In this document: piece after piece, positions 5,068 through 15,725 of the stretch | How the letters are laid out: each line of letters starts with the position of its first letter | How positions within the stretch are numbered: position 1 is the stretch's first letter | NCBI RefSeq assembly: GCF_025399835.1 | Contig: NZ_JAODVR010000002.1 | Span: forward strand, 1 to 64,000 | Reading direction: 5' to 3' | DNA from: Haloarchaeobius sp. HME9146 | GTDB taxonomy: Archaea; Halobacteriota; Halobacteria; Halobacteriales; Natrialbaceae | DNA length: 64,000 bases | Made by a program: the position numbers and the translations under genes | Notes under the pieces: model-generated | The model's database searches: none | What the model saw: only the letters and a program-made list of their open reading frames with translations | Told to the model about the DNA's origin: nothing

Positions 5068-6291
5068 ATGGAGTACACCGATTCCGAGACCGCACGAGAC
5101 CTCGCGGCCCGGGCGCGAGCGTTCGTCGAAGAGTACGTCATCCCCGTCGAGCGCGAGCACCTCGGCGGCCCGGCGGTCGACGAGGAGACCATCGCGGCCC
5201 TGCGCGAGAAGGCCCGCGAGCACGACGTCTACGCCCCACAGATGCCCGAGGAGTACGGCGGGCTCGGGCTGGACTTCCGCGACGTCCTCCCGCTGTTCGA
5301 GGAGGCCGGCCGGAGCCTGCTCGGCCCGAGCGCGATGCGCGTCGCCGCCCCCGACGAGGGGAACATGCATACGCTCGAACTGGTCGGGACCGAGGAGCAG
5401 AAGGAGGAGTGGCTTCGCCCCCTCGTGGCCGGCGAGATCCGCTCGGCGTTCTCGATGACCGAACCCCACGATGGCGGCGGCTCGGACCCGAAGATGATCC
5501 GCACCACAGCAGAGAAAGACGGCGACGAGTGGGTCATCAACGGCCACAAGTGGTGGACGACACAGGGCTCGGAGGCGGACGTGCTCATCGTGATGGCCCG
5601 GACCGACCTCGACGCCCACCCGTACGAGGGAACCTCCCTGTTCCTCGTGCCGGCCGACACCGAGGGCGTGAACATCGTCCGTGACATCCCCCACGTCGGC
5701 GGGGGCGTCACCGGCGGCAGCCACGCAGAGATACTGTACGAGGACGTGCGAATCCCGGAGGAGAACCTACTCGGAACCGAGGACGCGGGCTTCAAACACG
5801 CCCAGCAGCGCCTCGGGCCGGCCCGCCTCACCCACTGCATGCGCTTCTCCGGGATGGCCCAACGCGCCCTCGACGTGACCACTGCGTACACCAGCGAGCG
5901 CGAGGCGTTCGGCTCACCGCTCGCGGAGAAGCAGGCGCTGCGGTACGACATCGCCGAGGCAGAGATTCAGCTCCACGCCGCCCGAACCATGATTCGCGAC
6001 GCAGCCGACCGCATCTCCGCCGGCGACGAAGCCCGCATTCCGGTCGCGATGGCGAAGGTGTTCACCGCGAACACGGTCCAGGACATCATCGACCAGTGCG
6101 TCCAGTTCTGTGGCGGCAACGGCATCGGGAAGGACCTTCCCCTTGCAGACTTCTACGAGGACGTCCGCGCGTTCCGCATCATCGACGGGGCCGACGAGGT
6201 CCACAAGCGGGTCATCGCGCGCGAGGCGTTCTCGGACGTGGACGAGTCCGAACTCGACGTGCTGACGCGCTTCGGCGAACCGAACCGGTGA
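5068..6291 (+). CDS. Acyl-CoA dehydrogenase, ACAD10/11-like
   Basis: The 407-residue FAD-dependent dehydrogenase spans the alpha domain (1-120), beta domain (about 121-230) and C-terminal helical domain. Conserved parts are the GGLGLDFRDV helix, SMTEPHDGGGSDP (substrate/FAD loop), WWTTQGSEAD and CGGNGIGKDLPLADFYEDVR. The C-terminus reads IDGADEVHKRVIARE, the pattern of the ACAD10/11 group rather than the YEGT of classical short/medium-chain enzymes. Start 5068 follows a TATA-like element and matches the family N-terminus; the longer frame antisense to the kinase is rejected. Its divergent partner is an APH-type kinase, so it may act on phosphorylated hydroxyacyl-CoA. Confidence 0.9.
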   Translation: MEYTDSETARDLAARARAFVEEYVIPVEREHLGGPAVDEETIAALREKAREHDVYAPQMPEEYGGLGLDFRDVLPLFEEAGRSLLGPSAMRVAAPDEGNMHTLELVGTEEQKEEWLRPLVAGEIRSAFSMTEPHDGGGSDPKMIRTTAEKDGDEWVINGHKWWTTQGSEADVLIVMARTDLDAHPYEGTSLFLVPADTEGVNIVRDIPHVGGGVTGGSHAEILYEDVRIPEENLLGTEDAGFKHAQQRLGPARLTHCMRFSGMAQRALDVTTAYTSEREAFGSPLAEKQALRYDIAEAEIQLHAARTMIRDAADRISAGDEARIPVAMAKVFTANTVQDIIDQCVQFCGGNGIGKDLPLADFYEDVRAFRIIDGADEVHKRVIAREAFSDVDESELDVLTRFGEPNR

Positions 6292-8440: not shown

Positions 8441-8491
8441 ATGGCCCTGTCAGACAGCTGTGGCGGTGACGACGGGACGAGGGCGGCATGA
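8441..8491 (+). CDS. 16-codon leader ORF overlapping the permease start
   Basis: ATG 8441 opens the frame MALSDSCGGDDGTRAA and stops at TGA 8489-8491, which overlaps the permease ATG (8488-8490) as ATGA. The TATA box sits at the leaderless distance from this ATG, so the leader would be the first codon of the mRNA and the permease would be translated by coupling. The peptide has no run of one amino acid as in classical attenuators. It is too short to be proven coding from sequence alone. Confidence 0.45.
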   Translation: MALSDSCGGDDGTRAA

Positions 8492-9909
8492 GCCACGCCG
8501 GGGACCGCTCTCCGACCGCCAGCCTCACGCTGCTCGACGCGACGATGGTCGGCATCGGCGCGATGATCGGCGCGGGCATCTTCGTGCTGACCGGCCTCGC
8601 AGCCAGGGGTGCTGGCCCCGCGGCCCTCGTCGTGTTCGCGCTCAACGGCGGGGTCACGACGTTCACCGCGCTCTCGTACGCCGAACTGGCGGCGGCCATC
8701 CCCCGGAACGGCGGCGGGTACGCCTACGTCAGGGAGGTGTTCTCCGCGCCGGTCTCGTTCGTCATGGGCTGGACGCGCTGGTTCACCTACATGATTGCCG
8801 GCGCTCTCTACGCGCTCGGGTTCTCCTCGAACTTCGTCGAGTTCTTCCACATCTACGGCATCACGCTCCCAGGACCACCAGTCGCGTACGCGCTGGCGGC
8901 CGTCGTCGCCTTCGTGACGCTCAATGCGGTCTCGACCGAGGCGAGCGGGAGTGCGGAGACGCTCATCACCCTTGTCAAAATCGTCATCCTGCTCGTGTTC
9001 GTCGCGTTCGGCCTCTCCTTTGTCGACCTGGGTAATTTCGAGCCGCTGTTCCCGAACGGCCCCATCTCGGTGCTGCCCGCGATGGGCCTGACGTTCATCG
9101 CGTTCCAGGGGTACGACCTCATCGCGACGGTCACCGAGGAGGTCGAGAATCCCCAGAAGAACATCCCGCGAGCCATCCTGCTCTCGGTCGTCGTCACCAT
9201 CGTCGTCTACCTGCTCGTCGTGTTCGTCGCCATCGGCACGCTCGGCGCGGAGGGCCTCGGTGGGGCTGGCGAGACGGCCATCGCGCAGGCCGCGGAGAGC
9301 TTCATGCCGGCGCTCCCCATCATCGGGACCGGGGCGGCCATCATCGCCTTTGGTGCCGTGTTCTCGACCATCAGCGCGCTGAACGCGGTCGTCATCGGCT
9401 CCAGCCGCGTCGCGTTCGCGATGGGGCGCGAGAGCCAGCTCCCGAAGCGCCTCGGCCGGCTCCACGTCAAGTACGGGACGCCGTTCGTCGCCATCGTGGC
9501 CAGCGCCGCCGTGATGTTGCTCGCCGTCGTCGTGGTCCCCATCCGCATCGTCGGCAACCTCGCGAGTCTGTTCTCCCTGCTCGGGTTCGTCATCGTGAAC
9601 CTCAGCGTCATCCGGCTCCGTCGTCAGCAGCCCGACCTCCGCCGTCCCTTCGAGATTCCGTACTACCCGATTCCGCCCATCCTCGGTATCGTCCTCAACC
9701 TGCTGCTCGGGCTGTTCATCGACCCCGTCACGTGGGTGCTGGCGCTCGCGTGGCTCGCCATCGGCGTCGGCGTGTACTGGCTGCTCTCACGCCGCGGTGC
9801 CGTCGAGGAGGTCGAGGACATCGAGGACGTCGTCGGAGAGCCCGAACCGGAGATCGCCGAACCGGAACAGGACATCACCCTCCCACCAGCGGACGAAACC
9901 CAGGACTGA
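8488..9909 (+). CDS. APC superfamily permease
   Basis: The 473-residue transporter has about 12 transmembrane helices. The first contains GAMIGAGIFVLTG, the unwound-helix substrate site of the amino acid-polyamine-organocation family. An acidic cytoplasmic tail of about 40 residues (EEVEDIEDVVGEPEPE) follows the last helix. The gene is preceded by the overlapping leader ORF and followed after three bases by an RCK/TrkA-type gene, so the two probably form one unit. The substrate is unknown: amino acid uptake is the family default, but pairing with a K+-sensing type domain leaves cation transport (as in KimA/KUP members of the superfamily) open. Confidence 0.85.
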   Translation: MSHAGDRSPTASLTLLDATMVGIGAMIGAGIFVLTGLAARGAGPAALVVFALNGGVTTFTALSYAELAAAIPRNGGGYAYVREVFSAPVSFVMGWTRWFTYMIAGALYALGFSSNFVEFFHIYGITLPGPPVAYALAAVVAFVTLNAVSTEASGSAETLITLVKIVILLVFVAFGLSFVDLGNFEPLFPNGPISVLPAMGLTFIAFQGYDLIATVTEEVENPQKNIPRAILLSVVVTIVVYLLVVFVAIGTLGAEGLGGAGETAIAQAAESFMPALPIIGTGAAIIAFGAVFSTISALNAVVIGSSRVAFAMGRESQLPKRLGRLHVKYGTPFVAIVASAAVMLLAVVVVPIRIVGNLASLFSLLGFVIVNLSVIRLRRQQPDLRRPFEIPYYPIPPILGIVLNLLLGLFIDPVTWVLALAWLAIGVGVYWLLSRRGAVEEVEDIEDVVGEPEPEIAEPEQDITLPPADETQD

Positions 9910-9912
9910 CCC

Positions 9913-10575
9913 ATGTCACAGAGTACTCAAGAAGACCTTCGCGTCATCGTCGCCGGCGGCGGAACCGTCGGCCTCCGAACCGCCGAACTGCTCGCCGACC
10001 GCGGCCACAGCGTCGTCATCGTCGAACCGGATGCACGGAGAGCCGACCGTCTCAGCGACGAGTACATCGGCACCGTCATCGAGGGCGACGCGGCTCGACC
10101 CTCGATTCTCAGACAGGCCCAGCCCGACCGCTCGGACGTGGTCGCCGCACTCACCGACGACGAGGCGACCAACTTCGCCATCTGCATGGCCGCCCAGCGC
10201 ATGGCCGACATCCGCGCCGTGATGCGCATCTCCGAGGGCGAGGACGACCTCTACAGCGAGTACGTCGACGGCGTCGTCTTCCCCGAGTCGCTCGGGGCTC
10301 GCGCCGCGGTCAACGAGATAATCGTCGAGGGCGTCCGGACCCTCGAGGACATCGGCGGGAACGTCGAGGTGGTGGAAGTGGAGATCGCCGACGACGCGCC
10401 CGCGGCCGGGAAGACCTTGGAGGAGGTCCGGCTGCCGCGTGGGAGCCTCATCGTCGTGGATGCAGAGGGGAACCAGCTTGGTGGCCCCGAGACGGTGCTG
10501 GAGCCCGGCAATCGCTACGTGGTCGCGGTGGAGTCGGACGTGATGGACGAAGTGATGAACCTGTTGCGGGGCTAG
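9913..10575 (+). CDS. TrkA/RCK-domain regulatory protein
   Basis: The 220-residue soluble protein has an N-terminal Rossmann RCK (TrkA-N) domain with GGGTVG at 15-20 and an acidic residue (Glu38) ending strand 2, expected to bind NAD(H) or ATP. A TrkA-C (RCK-C) domain follows from about residue 140 to the end, including APAAGKTLEEVRLPRGSLIV. These proteins gate K+ channels and transporters. Here the partner is most likely the APC permease three bases upstream, not a TrkH. Its last 12 codons (DVMDEVMNLLRG) are duplicated at 15194-15232. Confidence 0.88.
   Translation: MSQSTQEDLRVIVAGGGTVGLRTAELLADRGHSVVIVEPDARRADRLSDEYIGTVIEGDAARPSILRQAQPDRSDVVAALTDDEATNFAICMAAQRMADIRAVMRISEGEDDLYSEYVDGVVFPESLGARAAVNEIIVEGVRTLEDIGGNVEVVEVEIADDAPAAGKTLEEVRLPRGSLIVVDAEGNQLGGPETVLEPGNRYVVAVESDVMDEVMNLLRG
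10537..10575 (+). repeat. Left copy of 39-bp direct repeat (3' end of the trkA-like gene)
   Basis: This is the terminal 39 bases of the trkA-like gene, encoding DVMDEVMNLLRG and stop. The first 24 bases are identical to 15194-15217. The remaining 15 match at 11 positions, and all four differences are synonymous. It is a candidate attachment site or duplication end. Confidence 0.7.
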
Positions 10576-10733
10576 CTTCCTGCTTCGGAATTCGAGCTGC
10601 GAACTGACTCGGTGTTTCTCGTCGTTTGAGACCTCGCCTCGGCTGTAAGCATCTGATTTGAGTGAGAATAACCATCGCCCACAGGCATGTCAAATGGCCA
10701 AAACCTATTAGTGATGGTCTGCTGAACTTTAAC

Positions 10734-10760
10734 TTGTTGAACGGATGTTAAATTCAACAA
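10734..10760 (+). promoter_or_regulatory. Perfect 8-bp inverted repeat enclosing the start codon
   Basis: TTGTTGAA (10734-10741) and TTCAACAA (10753-10760) are exact inverted copies separated by 11 nt. The ATG of the exported-protein gene (10745-10747) sits in the loop. It may be an operator overlapping the start or an mRNA hairpin occluding initiation. An AT-rich patch near 10703-10711 (CCTATTAGT) could be the TATA element. Confidence 0.5.
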
Positions 10761-11713
10761 ACCAACTTGAATTTGGACGGACTCGCCGGGCGGTGCTTCG
10801 GAGCCTCTCGGCTGCTGGTCTGACGACCGCAGTCTCGCCGGTTGCGGCGGGTTCGTCGGGTGGGGAACAGACGGTCTGGTCGTTCGAGGACGATCTCGAC
10901 GGCTGGCAGACGAACGGGAGCAACTCGCTGGTCCGCGTGTCGAACGAAGAGTTCTCGGGCATCGTAACGGGTTCTCACGGTCTCGGTGTCACGACCGACG
11001 GCGACCCGTATCCAATGATCGAGAACAAGACGCGACTGAGCGAGGTTGACCTCGTCGAATCGTCCTACCTGAGCGTCGATGTCCTGCCGATAGTTTTCGG
11101 CAGTGACAGCGATGTCGTCTTCCAGTTCGTCCTCCACGCAACGCCGGAAGAGACGGGCGAGAACGGACGTTCCAGAAACGGTGACTCGACTGAGAAGGGT
11201 AAGAACGGTTCGCAAGGCAAGCGCTCCGACGGGTCGAGCGATTCCGCTGGCAGGCCGCGCTCGGTCTCGTCTCCTGAACTTCGAGTCGAGCAATACTCTG
11301 CCAGCACGCTCGGTTGGGACCTCGAGTCGTACCCAACGTGGGTGCGACGCAATGCGACTCGACTGGAGATTCGCTGGCACCCGGCAGACTACGAACCACG
11401 AGGGACTCCCCGCGGCAACGGTCCCGCGACGTCCGACTACGACGGGTTCACGGTCTTCGACAGGGTCCAGGTCACCGACGACGTTGCTACTGTGGAACAG
11501 TCACAGGCGGCGAATGACCTCACGCGACTTCGGGCCGACCGAGGACGGGTGACGGCGGTCGAGACGAGTGAGCGAACTGAGGATTACGAGGCCGGTGAAT
11601 TCAATTTCGCTGATGGAACGACCGTCCCGTACGAGTTCGAGCGCCTCGACCGTAGCAAGTACCGTCTCACGGTCGATGGGACGGCCTACAGGCTCGGAGG
11701 TGGGTGGAAATGA
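10745..11713 (+). CDS. Tat-exported protein with lectin-like beta domain, unknown
   Basis: The 322-residue protein has a twin-arginine signal (GRTRRAVLRSLSAAGLTTAV, residues 11-30) followed by WSFEDDLDGWQTNGS. That opening is typical of galactose-binding or concanavalin-like beta-sandwich domains in exported haloarchaeal proteins. A low-complexity Ser/Gly/Lys/Glu insert (about residues 135-175) is probably a disordered loop, unusual in its content of Lys. The C-terminal 50 residues form a small beta module (FNFADGTTVPYEFERLDRSKYRL). It overlaps the next gene by ATGA, so the two are translationally coupled. The function is unknown. Confidence 0.7.
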   Translation: MLNSTNQLEFGRTRRAVLRSLSAAGLTTAVSPVAAGSSGGEQTVWSFEDDLDGWQTNGSNSLVRVSNEEFSGIVTGSHGLGVTTDGDPYPMIENKTRLSEVDLVESSYLSVDVLPIVFGSDSDVVFQFVLHATPEETGENGRSRNGDSTEKGKNGSQGKRSDGSSDSAGRPRSVSSPELRVEQYSASTLGWDLESYPTWVRRNATRLEIRWHPADYEPRGTPRGNGPATSDYDGFTVFDRVQVTDDVATVEQSQAANDLTRLRADRGRVTAVETSERTEDYEAGEFNFADGTTVPYEFERLDRSKYRLTVDGTAYRLGGGWK

Positions 11714-13749
11714 GCAGTCGCTCACCTGAACGACAGGTCGACGAAGGGCCAACCATCCAGTCTCAGCAGGCGGCCCAACCCGAGAGCGTAGACGGCGAAG
11801 GATTCCTGGTTATCAAAGACTGTAACTCGTGGGGCGGGACCGCGAACGTGGACGCACTCGAAGCCGGCGGCTACTCGTATGGCGTCGCCACATCGGAGCA
11901 GTTCACCCAGATGAGCCTCGAAGGGTGTCACACTCTGATCATCCCATCCACACAGGACTACCTGTACTATCGGAACCTCGCCGATGCCCGCGAGAAGATA
12001 GCCTCGTTTGTCGAAACCGGCGGTACCCTTATCGGTCATGTGACCGACTCTGGGTATCCGTGTTCGACCATCTGGAAGGAGCGATTCCTTCCAGGGTCCA
12101 TCGAGAAGACGACCGATTACGTCGATAACCTCAGCGTGACGGACGACGAGATATTCGAGGGGCTCGACGACGGTAGCATCGACAACTGGAACTACTCGGC
12201 ACACGGGTTCTTTACGGAGATACCCGATGACGCCGAGGTGTTGGCCAAGACCGCATACCGTGGTGAGCCGACCTACGTTCGCTACTCCTACGGTGACGGG
12301 GTCGTGTTGGCGACGATGCAGACCGTTGAGTGGCCCTGGACGTACAATGCTCGTTTCAACGTCCCGGACGTAGACGCGGCAAAAGGTCTTCTGGAGAACG
12401 AACTCGCGTTCGCAGCCGGCCGGCGCGGCCAGACGTCCGAATCGGTGTCTATGGACGTCGACATATTGAGCTTCATTCCCGGTGAGAGCGAGAACTCGAG
12501 TCGTGGCGGGAACCCGTTCAATGGGGCGGTGTCACAGTTCCTGCCACCGGATTACACCATCGAGGTGCCACTGAACCCATACTATCTCGCGGCGGAGTTC
12601 GCCATCGACGTTCCTGAGTTCATCAGTCCGAAACTGACGGTAGATACCACTCCCCTGTTCGACAACTGGGGGACTGGCGACATGATACTCTCTGATAACT
12701 ACCCAGAGGCACTCTCGGAGGCGACCAACCCTATCCCCAACAAGTACGAGGAACCGGGACCGAGCAGTGCGCCGCGGTACCGGACCCTCAACGGCGTTGA
12801 GATCGACTTCGAGACGGACGGTGACGGGGGTATCGAGGAGTCGACGGTAGAGGTGACATTCACAGGGGAGAACACGGAGAGCGTCCTCGAACAGGAGGAC
12901 GTGAATACGCTAAAGGATGACGTGGCATCTGACAACGGGAACGCACTGGACGGTGGCTACCGCGACAGGCACTTCGCCGTGGAGACCACGACCGTCGACG
13001 GGACGGAAGCGGTCCGAGTCGGAACGATCTTCGGTGGCTTCACCAGGGTCGGCTCCCAGGCACTGGAGTTACTCGCTGACCGTGGCCAGTACGATTTCCT
13101 GAACGACGTACTGGAGTGGGACTTCACCGTCGATTACGGTCTCATTGAGATCAGTCCCGATCTCGTACTCTCGCACCTGAGCGGACTCGTAGACGGCATC
13201 ACAACCGCCCTGGCCGCCGTGCCGAACATCTACACCCACCTAGAACTCACCGTCACTGCTGACGGCCGGCGGTTCGTCCGCGTCTGGGACCATAGCCCCT
13301 TCCCGGAGCACAGGCTGTACGTGGAAGGGACTGAAGCGTTCTCCTACGATTTCCCGGACGAGGAGGGGACGTTACGCGAATTGATGGGACCGGAGTTCGT
13401 CGCGTTCCTCGCCGGTGCGACGGTCGGTCGGGGTCCGTACTACGGGTCGAAGAACCAGTACCTCGCTTGCGTGAGCGAAGGGGATTGCCCGTTCGATGCC
13501 GAGGAGATAATCGGCGACGTCGTCGCCGCGAACCCGGCTGTCGCGAACACGCCCTACGCCGACGAGCTGGTCGAGATCGCACTCGAACTGCTCAACGGCA
13601 GCCGTGACCCGGTGTGGAGCTACGGCTACGACGACTCCGGCACTATCGACGAGTCGGAGGTGGAATCGGTACTGCCCGACGAATTGCTAGACCCCTTCGA
13701 CGAGCGAGTGTCCCACCTCGGGCAGCGGCAGTTCACGGAGAACCTATAA
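11710..13749 (+). CDS. Large protein with glutamine-amidotransferase-like N-terminal domain
   Basis: The 679-residue protein starts at ATG 11710, overlapping the previous stop as ATGA. Residues 30-235 (FLVIKDCNSWGGT ... HTLIIPSTQDYLYYR ... FVETGGTLIGHVTD) resemble the class I glutamine-amidotransferase/ThuA-like flavodoxin fold that recurs in carbohydrate-related proteins, without an obvious catalytic Cys-His-Glu triad. The remaining 440 residues are acidic, mixed alpha/beta, and not recognised; a Cys pair (LACVSEGDC) lies near residue 580. There is no signal peptide or membrane helix, although both neighbours are Tat substrates. It could be exported by piggy-back or act inside the cell. Confidence 0.65.
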   Translation: MSSRSPERQVDEGPTIQSQQAAQPESVDGEGFLVIKDCNSWGGTANVDALEAGGYSYGVATSEQFTQMSLEGCHTLIIPSTQDYLYYRNLADAREKIASFVETGGTLIGHVTDSGYPCSTIWKERFLPGSIEKTTDYVDNLSVTDDEIFEGLDDGSIDNWNYSAHGFFTEIPDDAEVLAKTAYRGEPTYVRYSYGDGVVLATMQTVEWPWTYNARFNVPDVDAAKGLLENELAFAAGRRGQTSESVSMDVDILSFIPGESENSSRGGNPFNGAVSQFLPPDYTIEVPLNPYYLAAEFAIDVPEFISPKLTVDTTPLFDNWGTGDMILSDNYPEALSEATNPIPNKYEEPGPSSAPRYRTLNGVEIDFETDGDGGIEESTVEVTFTGENTESVLEQEDVNTLKDDVASDNGNALDGGYRDRHFAVETTTVDGTEAVRVGTIFGGFTRVGSQALELLADRGQYDFLNDVLEWDFTVDYGLIEISPDLVLSHLSGLVDGITTALAAVPNIYTHLELTVTADGRRFVRVWDHSPFPEHRLYVEGTEAFSYDFPDEEGTLRELMGPEFVAFLAGATVGRGPYYGSKNQYLACVSEGDCPFDAEEIIGDVVAANPAVANTPYADELVEIALELLNGSRDPVWSYGYDDSGTIDESEVESVLPDELLDPFDERVSHLGQRQFTENL

Positions 13750-13792
13750 AACCTCGCCGTTGGTATCCACCGTTGGAGACATTCAACGTTCT

Positions 13793-15073
13793 ATGAACCC
13801 GACACGACGCTCTATCCTCGGTGCGGTTGCTGGCACTGGCCTGGCAGGCTGTCTCCGCCTCGGGCAGTCCTCGGAGGAATCAATCGGGAGTATCGCCTGC
13901 GGGGAGGAGACGCACCAGCCGTCCACCGGCGAGCGTCTCACGGGAATCGGGACGGACTGGCCCGCACCGCAGCACGATATCGCCAACACCGGCTTCAACC
14001 CGGCGGTCTCGACCACCGAGACGAGGTGTGGGCAGACCAGATGGATTCGTGAACTCGCCGACGAACAGGACGGCGTGGTCGGTGCACCCACGCTCCGCGA
14101 CGAGACGGTCTTCGTGTCCCGCCGAGATTCGGTCGTCGCAGTCGATGCCCGGTCCGGGACCGAGTCGTGGTCGGTGCCGGTCCCCCACGAGATATGGACG
14201 ACACCGGTCGTCGGGACCGACCGGGTCTTCGTCGGGACCAGAAACGGAGTCGTCGCGATCTCGATAGCCGACCGGCAGGTCGACTGGCAAGCGCCACTCC
14301 AACAGAGCGCCTTCGACGACATCGATGGACGAGGCTGGGTGTCTGGCGCGCCGACGGTCGGTGACGAGTACGTCTTTGCCGGAACGAAAGCTGGCCAGTT
14401 CGCCGCCCTCGATGCCGTCACCGGCGAGACCGTCTGGTCTACCACGACCGATCTGCTCCCGGATGGGAGCGCCTCGCCCGAGAACGCGAACCTCCCGGTG
14501 TTCGACGGGCCGGCAGCCGTCGCCGACGGGACCGTCGTCATCGGGAACTGGAACGGCCAGTTGTACGCCTTCGACGCCAGCTCCGGTGAGGAGTTGTGGA
14601 CACGAACGGGCGACACAGACTACGAGCCTGCACCGACGGTCGTGGGCGAGACGGTGCTCGCGACGACGGAGACGACGATGGCCGCGGTGCGCCTCACCGA
14701 TGGCACCGTCGAGTGGACCTACAGCGGCGACCCGGGTTCGGTCACGCTGTCGGCCACCGTCGTCGACGGCACAGCGCACGTCGCAGCCGGCGACTCGTAC
14801 TCCTCGCTGTCGGTCATCTCGCTCGACCTGACCGACCGGTCGGTCGCCTGGCGGACCGACGGGCGACCACAGACGAGTGCGGGTACCGACGGTGCCACGC
14901 TGTACCTCGGTCTCTACGGGAACCTGGTTGCGATAGACCGGCAATCGGGTGAGGTTGCCTGGGAGATGCGCACGGAATCGGTCCTCAGTGGGCCACCCAT
15001 CGTCACGGCGGGAGCGGTGATCGCGCTCGACGAACGCGGTTTCCTGTACGGTGTCGATACGACTGGTGGCTGA
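13793..15073 (+). CDS. Tat lipoprotein with PQQ-type beta-propeller
   Basis: The 426-residue protein begins MNPTRRSILGAVAGTGLAGC, a Tat signal ending in a lipobox, with Cys20 as the lipid anchor. From about residue 60 it contains repeated blades with the PQQ/pyrrolo-quinoline-like signature, for example VVAVDARSGTESW, FAALDAVTGETVW, LYAFDASSGEELW and LVAIDRQSGEVAW. These make a seven- or eight-bladed propeller outside the membrane. Many archaeal members bind no PQQ and serve as scaffold or interaction proteins. It closes the three-gene island unit 43 bases after the previous stop. Confidence 0.85.
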   Translation: MNPTRRSILGAVAGTGLAGCLRLGQSSEESIGSIACGEETHQPSTGERLTGIGTDWPAPQHDIANTGFNPAVSTTETRCGQTRWIRELADEQDGVVGAPTLRDETVFVSRRDSVVAVDARSGTESWSVPVPHEIWTTPVVGTDRVFVGTRNGVVAISIADRQVDWQAPLQQSAFDDIDGRGWVSGAPTVGDEYVFAGTKAGQFAALDAVTGETVWSTTTDLLPDGSASPENANLPVFDGPAAVADGTVVIGNWNGQLYAFDASSGEELWTRTGDTDYEPAPTVVGETVLATTETTMAAVRLTDGTVEWTYSGDPGSVTLSATVVDGTAHVAAGDSYSSLSVISLDLTDRSVAWRTDGRPQTSAGTDGATLYLGLYGNLVAIDRQSGEVAWEMRTESVLSGPPIVTAGAVIALDERGFLYGVDTTGG

Positions 15074-15193
15074 ATCTTCGGGTTCATCCCACGGATGCTG
15101 CTGTTGGGTTCCCCGGTGAATCCCTGTGGGAGAGAACGCTGGCGTATCTGACTGGAGATGGTACGCTCGGGTGCTACAGTACTGCTCCAGTGC

Positions 15194-15232
15194 GACGTGA
15201 TGGACGAAGTGATGAACTTGCTCAGGGGCTAG
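15194..15232 (+). repeat. Right copy of the 39-bp repeat (trkA-like 3' remnant)
   Basis: The sequence encodes DVMDEVMNLLRG and TAG but has no gene body upstream. Similarity stops sharply at the GAC codon: the bases before it bear no resemblance to the trkA-like gene. It differs from 10537-10575 at four synonymous positions (CTG/TTG, TTG/CTC, CGG/AGG). It sits 13 bases before the stop of the Lrp gene, as an original gene end would. Confidence 0.7.
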
Positions 15233-15245
15233 AAGGAGTCCTGTG

Positions 15246-15725
15246 TCACCCGAGGTCCTCGTCGATGTCCCCGAACCCGGAGAACGGCCGGTTTCGCTCG
15301 CTCCGGACGAGTTCCTCGTCGAGGATGGTCAACCCGATATCGCTGAGGTCGGTCGCGATGCGGGTCAGGTCGTCGCCGTCCTCGCCGACGACGGTCACGA
15401 GCACGTTGCGCTCGCCGGTGGCCAGTTCCCGCACGCCGATGACGCCCGGGACCGACATCGCCTCATCGCTCATCGTCTCGCGCTCTGGAATCGGGGCCGT
15501 GCAGGTGATCTGGACGTGGAGCTGGTAGCCCGCGTTGTCGTAATTGACGTCGGCGTGGTAGCCGTCGATGATACCCTGCTCTTCGAGGCGCTGGATGCGT
15601 TTTCGAACCGTGCTCGGCGAGGCCGAGATGGACTCGGCGATGTTGCGCGAGGAGACGTGTCTCGCGTCCCGTTGCAGGTTGCGGAGGATGCGGCGGTCAA
15701 GCTCGTCGAGGCCATCGAGCGTCAT
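15246..15725 (-). CDS. Lrp/AsnC family transcriptional regulator
   Basis: The 159-residue protein has an N-terminal AsnC-type winged helix-turn-helix (LDELDRRILRNLQRDAR, then SPSTVRKRIQRLEEQGII, residues 5-55) and a C-terminal RAM/ligand-binding alpha-beta domain (residues 65-140). It ends in an acidic tail. Such regulators respond to amino acids or other effectors as dimers or octamers. Its original neighbour was probably the trkA-like/permease operon now separated by the island, making that operon a possible target. The ATG precedes the canonical N-terminus directly. Confidence 0.9.
   Translation of the reverse strand: MTLDGLDELDRRILRNLQRDARHVSSRNIAESISASPSTVRKRIQRLEEQGIIDGYHADVNYDNAGYQLHVQITCTAPIPERETMSDEAMSVPGVIGVRELATGERNVLVTVVGEDGDDLTRIATDLSDIGLTILDEELVRSERNRPFSGFGDIDEDLG

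Follow-up and report, generated by a model that had tools for sequence, protein, structure and literature searches.

A 4.66-kb island of three genes (i1, i2 and i3) lies between a trkA-like gene and a convergent lrp gene in the stretch of Haloarchaeobius sp. HME9146 DNA analyzed here (64,000 nucleotides, called the window below), and we put at about one half the probability that it is an integrase-less relic, similar to a CIME, of a site-specific integration into the 3' end of the trkA-like gene. A CIME is a cis-mobilizable element, an integrase-less island that retains attL and attR (PMC5704250), and archaeal integration into the 3' ends of protein genes is documented (PMC6563490; PMC8371274). 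This reading is built on the direct repeat whose two copies bound the island, the lack of the island in sister species G001, which keeps both flanks, the foreign base composition of the island, and the failure of profile searches to find an integrase within it. The features of the locus are listed in Table 1.

Table 1. Features of the trkA-lrp region of the window, with the evidence for each
Feature	Position	Strand	Evidence
Amino acid permease, conserved neighbor of the trkA-like gene	8488..9909	+	Pfam AA_permease_2 E=3e-56; pair kept in 20 other genomes
trkA-like gene, putative integration target	9913..10575	+	Pfam TrkA_N 8e-22, TrkA_C 5e-10; 93% aa orthologue in G001
Left repeat (putative attL), functional trkA-like 3' end	10537..10575	+	35/39 vs 15194-15232; 24-mer twice in genome
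AT-rich island leader, 48.5% GC	10576..10744	.	Base composition
i1, Tat-exported (predicted), LamG/jellyroll-like	10745..11713	+	RR invariant in 12 homologues; plasmid annotation of homologues
i2, partner without own signal; weak N-terminal amidotransferase-like segment and conserved C-terminal core	11704..13749	+	Homologue comparison
i3, PQQ/BamB-like beta-propeller lipoprotein, Tat signal and lipobox	13793..15073	+	PQQ_2 E=4.5e-36
Right repeat (putative attR), copy of the trkA 3' end without a gene	15194..15232	+	Same repeat comparison and genome 24-mer search
Lrp/AsnC regulator on the right host flank, transcribed toward trkA	15246..15725	-	Pfam HTH_24; 81% aa orthologue at the same position in G001

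The left repeat (GACGTGATGGACGAAGTGATGAACCTGTTGCGGGGCTAG) and the right repeat (GACGTGATGGACGAAGTGATGAACTTGCTCAGGGGCTAG) are 39 nt each and have the same orientation. An earlier note on this DNA had claimed that the last 39 bases of the trkA-like gene recur at the far border of the island with 24 identical bases and four synonymous substitutions, and that the similarity begins abruptly at one codon. Both statements hold: the two copies are identical at 35 of 39 positions, with 24 perfectly matched nt, four differences (repeat positions 25, 28, 30 and 31, 1-based, all within 7 nt) and then 8 perfectly matched nt that run through the stop codon. All four differences are synonymous, and the left and right copies both translate to DVMDEVMNLLRG*. 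The 3' edge of the similarity is directly after the TAG stop codon and the 5' edge is abrupt, with an AGT and two mismatches alone upstream of it. A whole-genome search found the 24-mer twice in the 4.19-Mb genome, both times at the repeats, even when up to three mismatches were allowed, and outside the two repeats the 39-mer aligns without gaps to no other part of the window at better than 24 of 39 positions; the match between the two tails is far beyond chance. In the putative core no dyad symmetry exceeds that of shuffled sequences, and no terminal inverted repeats were found at the island ends.

The genus is represented in our collection by six species, and the locus was compared with the other five genomes. 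An orthologue of the trkA-like gene is present in G001 alone (93% amino acid identity), and there the locus is collinear on both sides at 85-90% DNA identity, with the permease and trkA on the left and lrp, a hypothetical gene and mrp on the right. G001 has a single tail copy and no i1-i2-i3. The earlier note had proposed as a check an empty site in which trkA is followed directly by lrp, and such a site was not found: the trkA-lrp slot of G001 is filled by a 126-aa gene that has no match in the window genome and has homologues carrying the annotation putative zinc-binding protein. We therefore downgraded G001 as an empty site, and the occupation of its slot by a gene that is absent from the window genome requires one additional gain or loss, if not more. 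The i1 and i2 proteins have no match in the five other genus genomes, and the island DNA has nothing there beyond short matches, mostly 30-75 bp PQQ-type pieces within i3. The mrp-hypothetical-lrp block on plasmids of Halobaculum and Halomicrococcus is followed past lrp by different genes again, and the position beyond lrp is variable across genera. In G001 the 9-mer GAATCAGAC stands within the trkA tail and again immediately past the stop codon (reverse complement of L033, ~5652-5705), possibly by chance.

Is the synonymous pattern of the repeat differences itself proof that an incoming element carried a replacement tail? Given four random changes within the last 15 nt, the probability that all are synonymous is ~0.006-0.01, and that of the clustering of four changes within 7 nt is ~0.008. 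When the changes are polarized with G001 as the outgroup, however, two fall on the left copy and just two on the right copy, so the pattern was downgraded as proof of a carried tail. Both changes on the right copy are synonymous, which is expected by chance at ~0.1 (15 of 45 single changes are synonymous). Because the right copy has just these two polarized changes, and the left copy is under selection anyway, they give a weak hint that the right copy, non-coding today, may once have been a functional tail under coding selection. The two window tails differ from one another at four positions and each differs from the G001 tail at eight, so the two have a common origin that postdates the split from G001; this later shared origin could fit an element that brought a tail from a near relative, and it could also fit a local duplication. 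Both window tails are inside the natural codon variation of trkA tails.

The composition of the island sets it apart from its surroundings, with a GC fraction of 0.618 against 0.663 in the window and a GC3 of 0.71-0.81 against 0.87-0.92 for the neighboring genes. Since its GC3 is below that of its neighbors the island was probably acquired, and on the simplest reading of the composition together with the comparison of relatives this lineage obtained it horizontally. The earlier note had seen no integrase in the island, and profile searches agree, giving no match to an integrase family, no recombinase remnant, and no transposase or cas1 match within it; the six PF00589 matches that the genome has outside the island are unlinked to the site. 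Direct repeats at both island ends, one of them the 3' end of an intact gene, are thus present as in an att-flanked element integrated into a gene 3' end, and the integrase gene of such an element is missing. Two repeats around an island in which no integration or transfer genes were found would be the arrangement of a CIME if the repeats act as att sites.

The use of the same site in other genomes was followed through the permease-trkA pair, which is common in haloarchaea; at the 20 orthologous loci in other genomes where the pair is conserved, no tail copy lies downstream within 15 kb (10 kb in one). A search of 391 haloarchaeal (class) genomes revealed no other use of the site, and neither the exact 24-mer nor degenerate tails matched anything in IMG/VR. 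A degenerate-tail scan of the 76 genomes that have trkA-like relatives singled out the window genome: it alone has, close to an intact trkA, an additional tail on the same strand that belongs to no gene. Other elements at this site were thus not found in the 391 genomes, IMG/VR, the 20 orthologous loci or the 76-genome tail scan, and the 391 class genomes, the tail scan and IMG/VR gave no integrase-bearing relative of the island that might have been its source, as for a CIME, or its mobilizer. Integrase-bearing islands at the same 24-bp site, which the earlier note had suggested as a second check, were likewise absent from the 391 class genomes and IMG/VR. A pair of trkA-like tails on opposite strands, facing outward and separated by ~2.9 kb, occurs in many genomes of genus g36 and in some others (G212, G190, G204, G163 and others), which suggests a paired divergent arrangement.

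The genes inside the island are found in other haloarchaea. The stop of i1 and the start of i2 overlap, and an adjacent i1-i2 pair is present in ~20 of the 391 genomes (window 10745-13749; L112, L113, L182-L193), among them G009, which belongs to the same family as the host genome. A PQQ-propeller gene like i3 lies beside the pair in G067 (same order), G365 (inverted) and G212. The earlier note had described two Tat-exported proteins and an amidotransferase-like protein; the Tat signals of i1 and i3 stand (the RR of i1 is invariant in 12 homologues, and plasmid annotation of i1 homologues reads LamG-like jellyroll), but the sole basis for calling i2 amidotransferase-like is a sub-threshold Pfam match to BPL_N (E=0.0013). 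The N-terminal segment of i2 is modular, and in different homologues it is amidotransferase-like (weakly), a kelch domain, or missing. Given that i2 has no signal of its own, it may be co-exported with i1. The cargo is a recurrent haloarchaeal module in which a predicted Tat-exported jellyroll-like protein and its partner are in some cases joined by a PQQ-propeller lipoprotein. At 17 other module loci there are no flanking direct repeats >17 bp and no nearby tRNA (no repeats or tRNAs beyond chance), and the module is therefore not intrinsically att-flanked.

How might the island have come to lie between two copies of one gene end? Most likely a circular element would have carried it in, through a Campbell-type, site-specific crossover somewhere in the 24 bp that are identical at the trkA-like 3' end. 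The element would have supplied its own tail, LLRG-stop written in other codons, and so left the trkA-like gene intact, and the displaced host tail would now be the right repeat beside lrp. The recombinase would have been lost by the element or never encoded by it, and the island would persist with both of its putative att-like ends. The similarity ends exactly at the stop codon; this is expected if a working tail was selected for, but not from passive duplication. We infer the recombinase, the crossover position and the assignment of the two tails to host and element. The same is true of any present mobility, because no bare empty site, no second use of the site, no repeats around the cargo elsewhere and no dyad symmetry were found. 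On these same points the integration model of the earlier note is not borne out; it does find agreement in the lineage-specific island, its foreign composition, and the gene-3'-end repeat that is joined to its far border. A broader extension, in which a minimal integrase-less cassette captures protein-gene 3' ends and depends on a resident haloarchaeal recombinase for its movement in trans, thereby spreading Tat-exported surface modules, seems to us very improbable.

The main rival, which we consider a good deal less probable than integration but a serious candidate, is a deletion-coupled insertion or homologous or illegitimate recombination, in which DNA of a related strain that included a trkA end replaced the trkA-lrp spacer with no integrase, the repeat being homology at one or both junctions. 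The window and G001 do hold unrelated sequences (the island and the zinc-binding-protein gene) at one position between collinear flanks, which is the pattern of the deletion-coupled insertions of Haloquadratum (PMC3119063), the gene beyond lrp varies in other genera too, and codon variation of the kind seen between the two tails occurs naturally among trkA genes. Against this rival, a 39-nt repeat that is coding and ends at the stop stands at the junctions, where a deletion-coupled insertion would be expected to have no long direct repeat; the Haloquadratum authors contrast their insertions with site-specific islands that produce direct repeats (PMC3119063).

A rather unlikely alternative is that a trkA duplicate or second trkA gene once stood here and lost its body by deletion, leaving the right repeat as all that survives of it, and that the three genes came to lie in between by coincidence. 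trkA tails can outlive gene decay, since in one genus the permease-trkA pairs of G386 and G364 have decayed so that the former keeps the trkA tail alone (L211 9644-9682) and the latter a truncated trkA (L212 9668-10033), and the two window tails coalesce more recently with each other than either does with the G001 tail. Against such a remnant, no trkA or permease sequence is present upstream of the right copy, the similarity starts abruptly at one codon, and the two borders coincide with the island edges. Insertion of a transposon (an insertion sequence, MITE or casposon), in which the repeat would be the target-site duplication, is scarcely credible, in spite of the fact that casposons can target protein-gene 3' ends (PMC6563490), given no transposase or cas1 match, no inverted repeats at the island termini, and a 39-nt imperfect repeat that is atypical for a duplication.

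If the integration reading is confirmed, the trkA-like gene would be added to the short list of archaeal protein genes into which elements are known to integrate, the locus would be a clean case of a target restored by the recoded tail of an element, and it would reveal one way in which a cell-surface gene module of sporadic occurrence in haloarchaea enters a new host.

Several known systems resemble this island in part. The i1-i2(-i3) module elsewhere in haloarchaea has the same adjacent genes (G067, G365, G212 and ~20 further genomes) but no flanking repeats, and its i2 is often without the N-terminal amidotransferase-like segment. The Haloquadratum insertions (PMC3119063) share with it unrelated sequences at one position, collinear flanks and a haloarchaeal host, and differ in having been set by their authors against direct-repeat islands. 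Thaumarchaeal integrated elements (PMC6563490) have, like the island, an archaeal host and short repeats and, as proposed for the island, integration at 3'-distal sites in protein genes with a stop codon supplied by the element; theirs were verified against empty sites, whereas the comparison site here is filled by another gene. The classic tail-restoring case is e14 in the E. coli icd gene, with 10 synonymous and 2 non-synonymous differences (PMC2973815), and, as proposed for the island, it targets a protein gene 3' end and brings a replacement tail that is mostly synonymous; e14 is 15 kb long and known to excise, in contrast to the 39-nt tail and 4.66-kb island without mobility genes found here. 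A CIME (PMC5704250) differs in that no integrase-bearing relative with this site was found for the island in the genomes and viral sequences searched, and in that excision of the island is putative, but it is alike in that repeats with a putative att role bound the island, one of them would restore the 3' end of a gene, and no integration or transfer genes were found in it.
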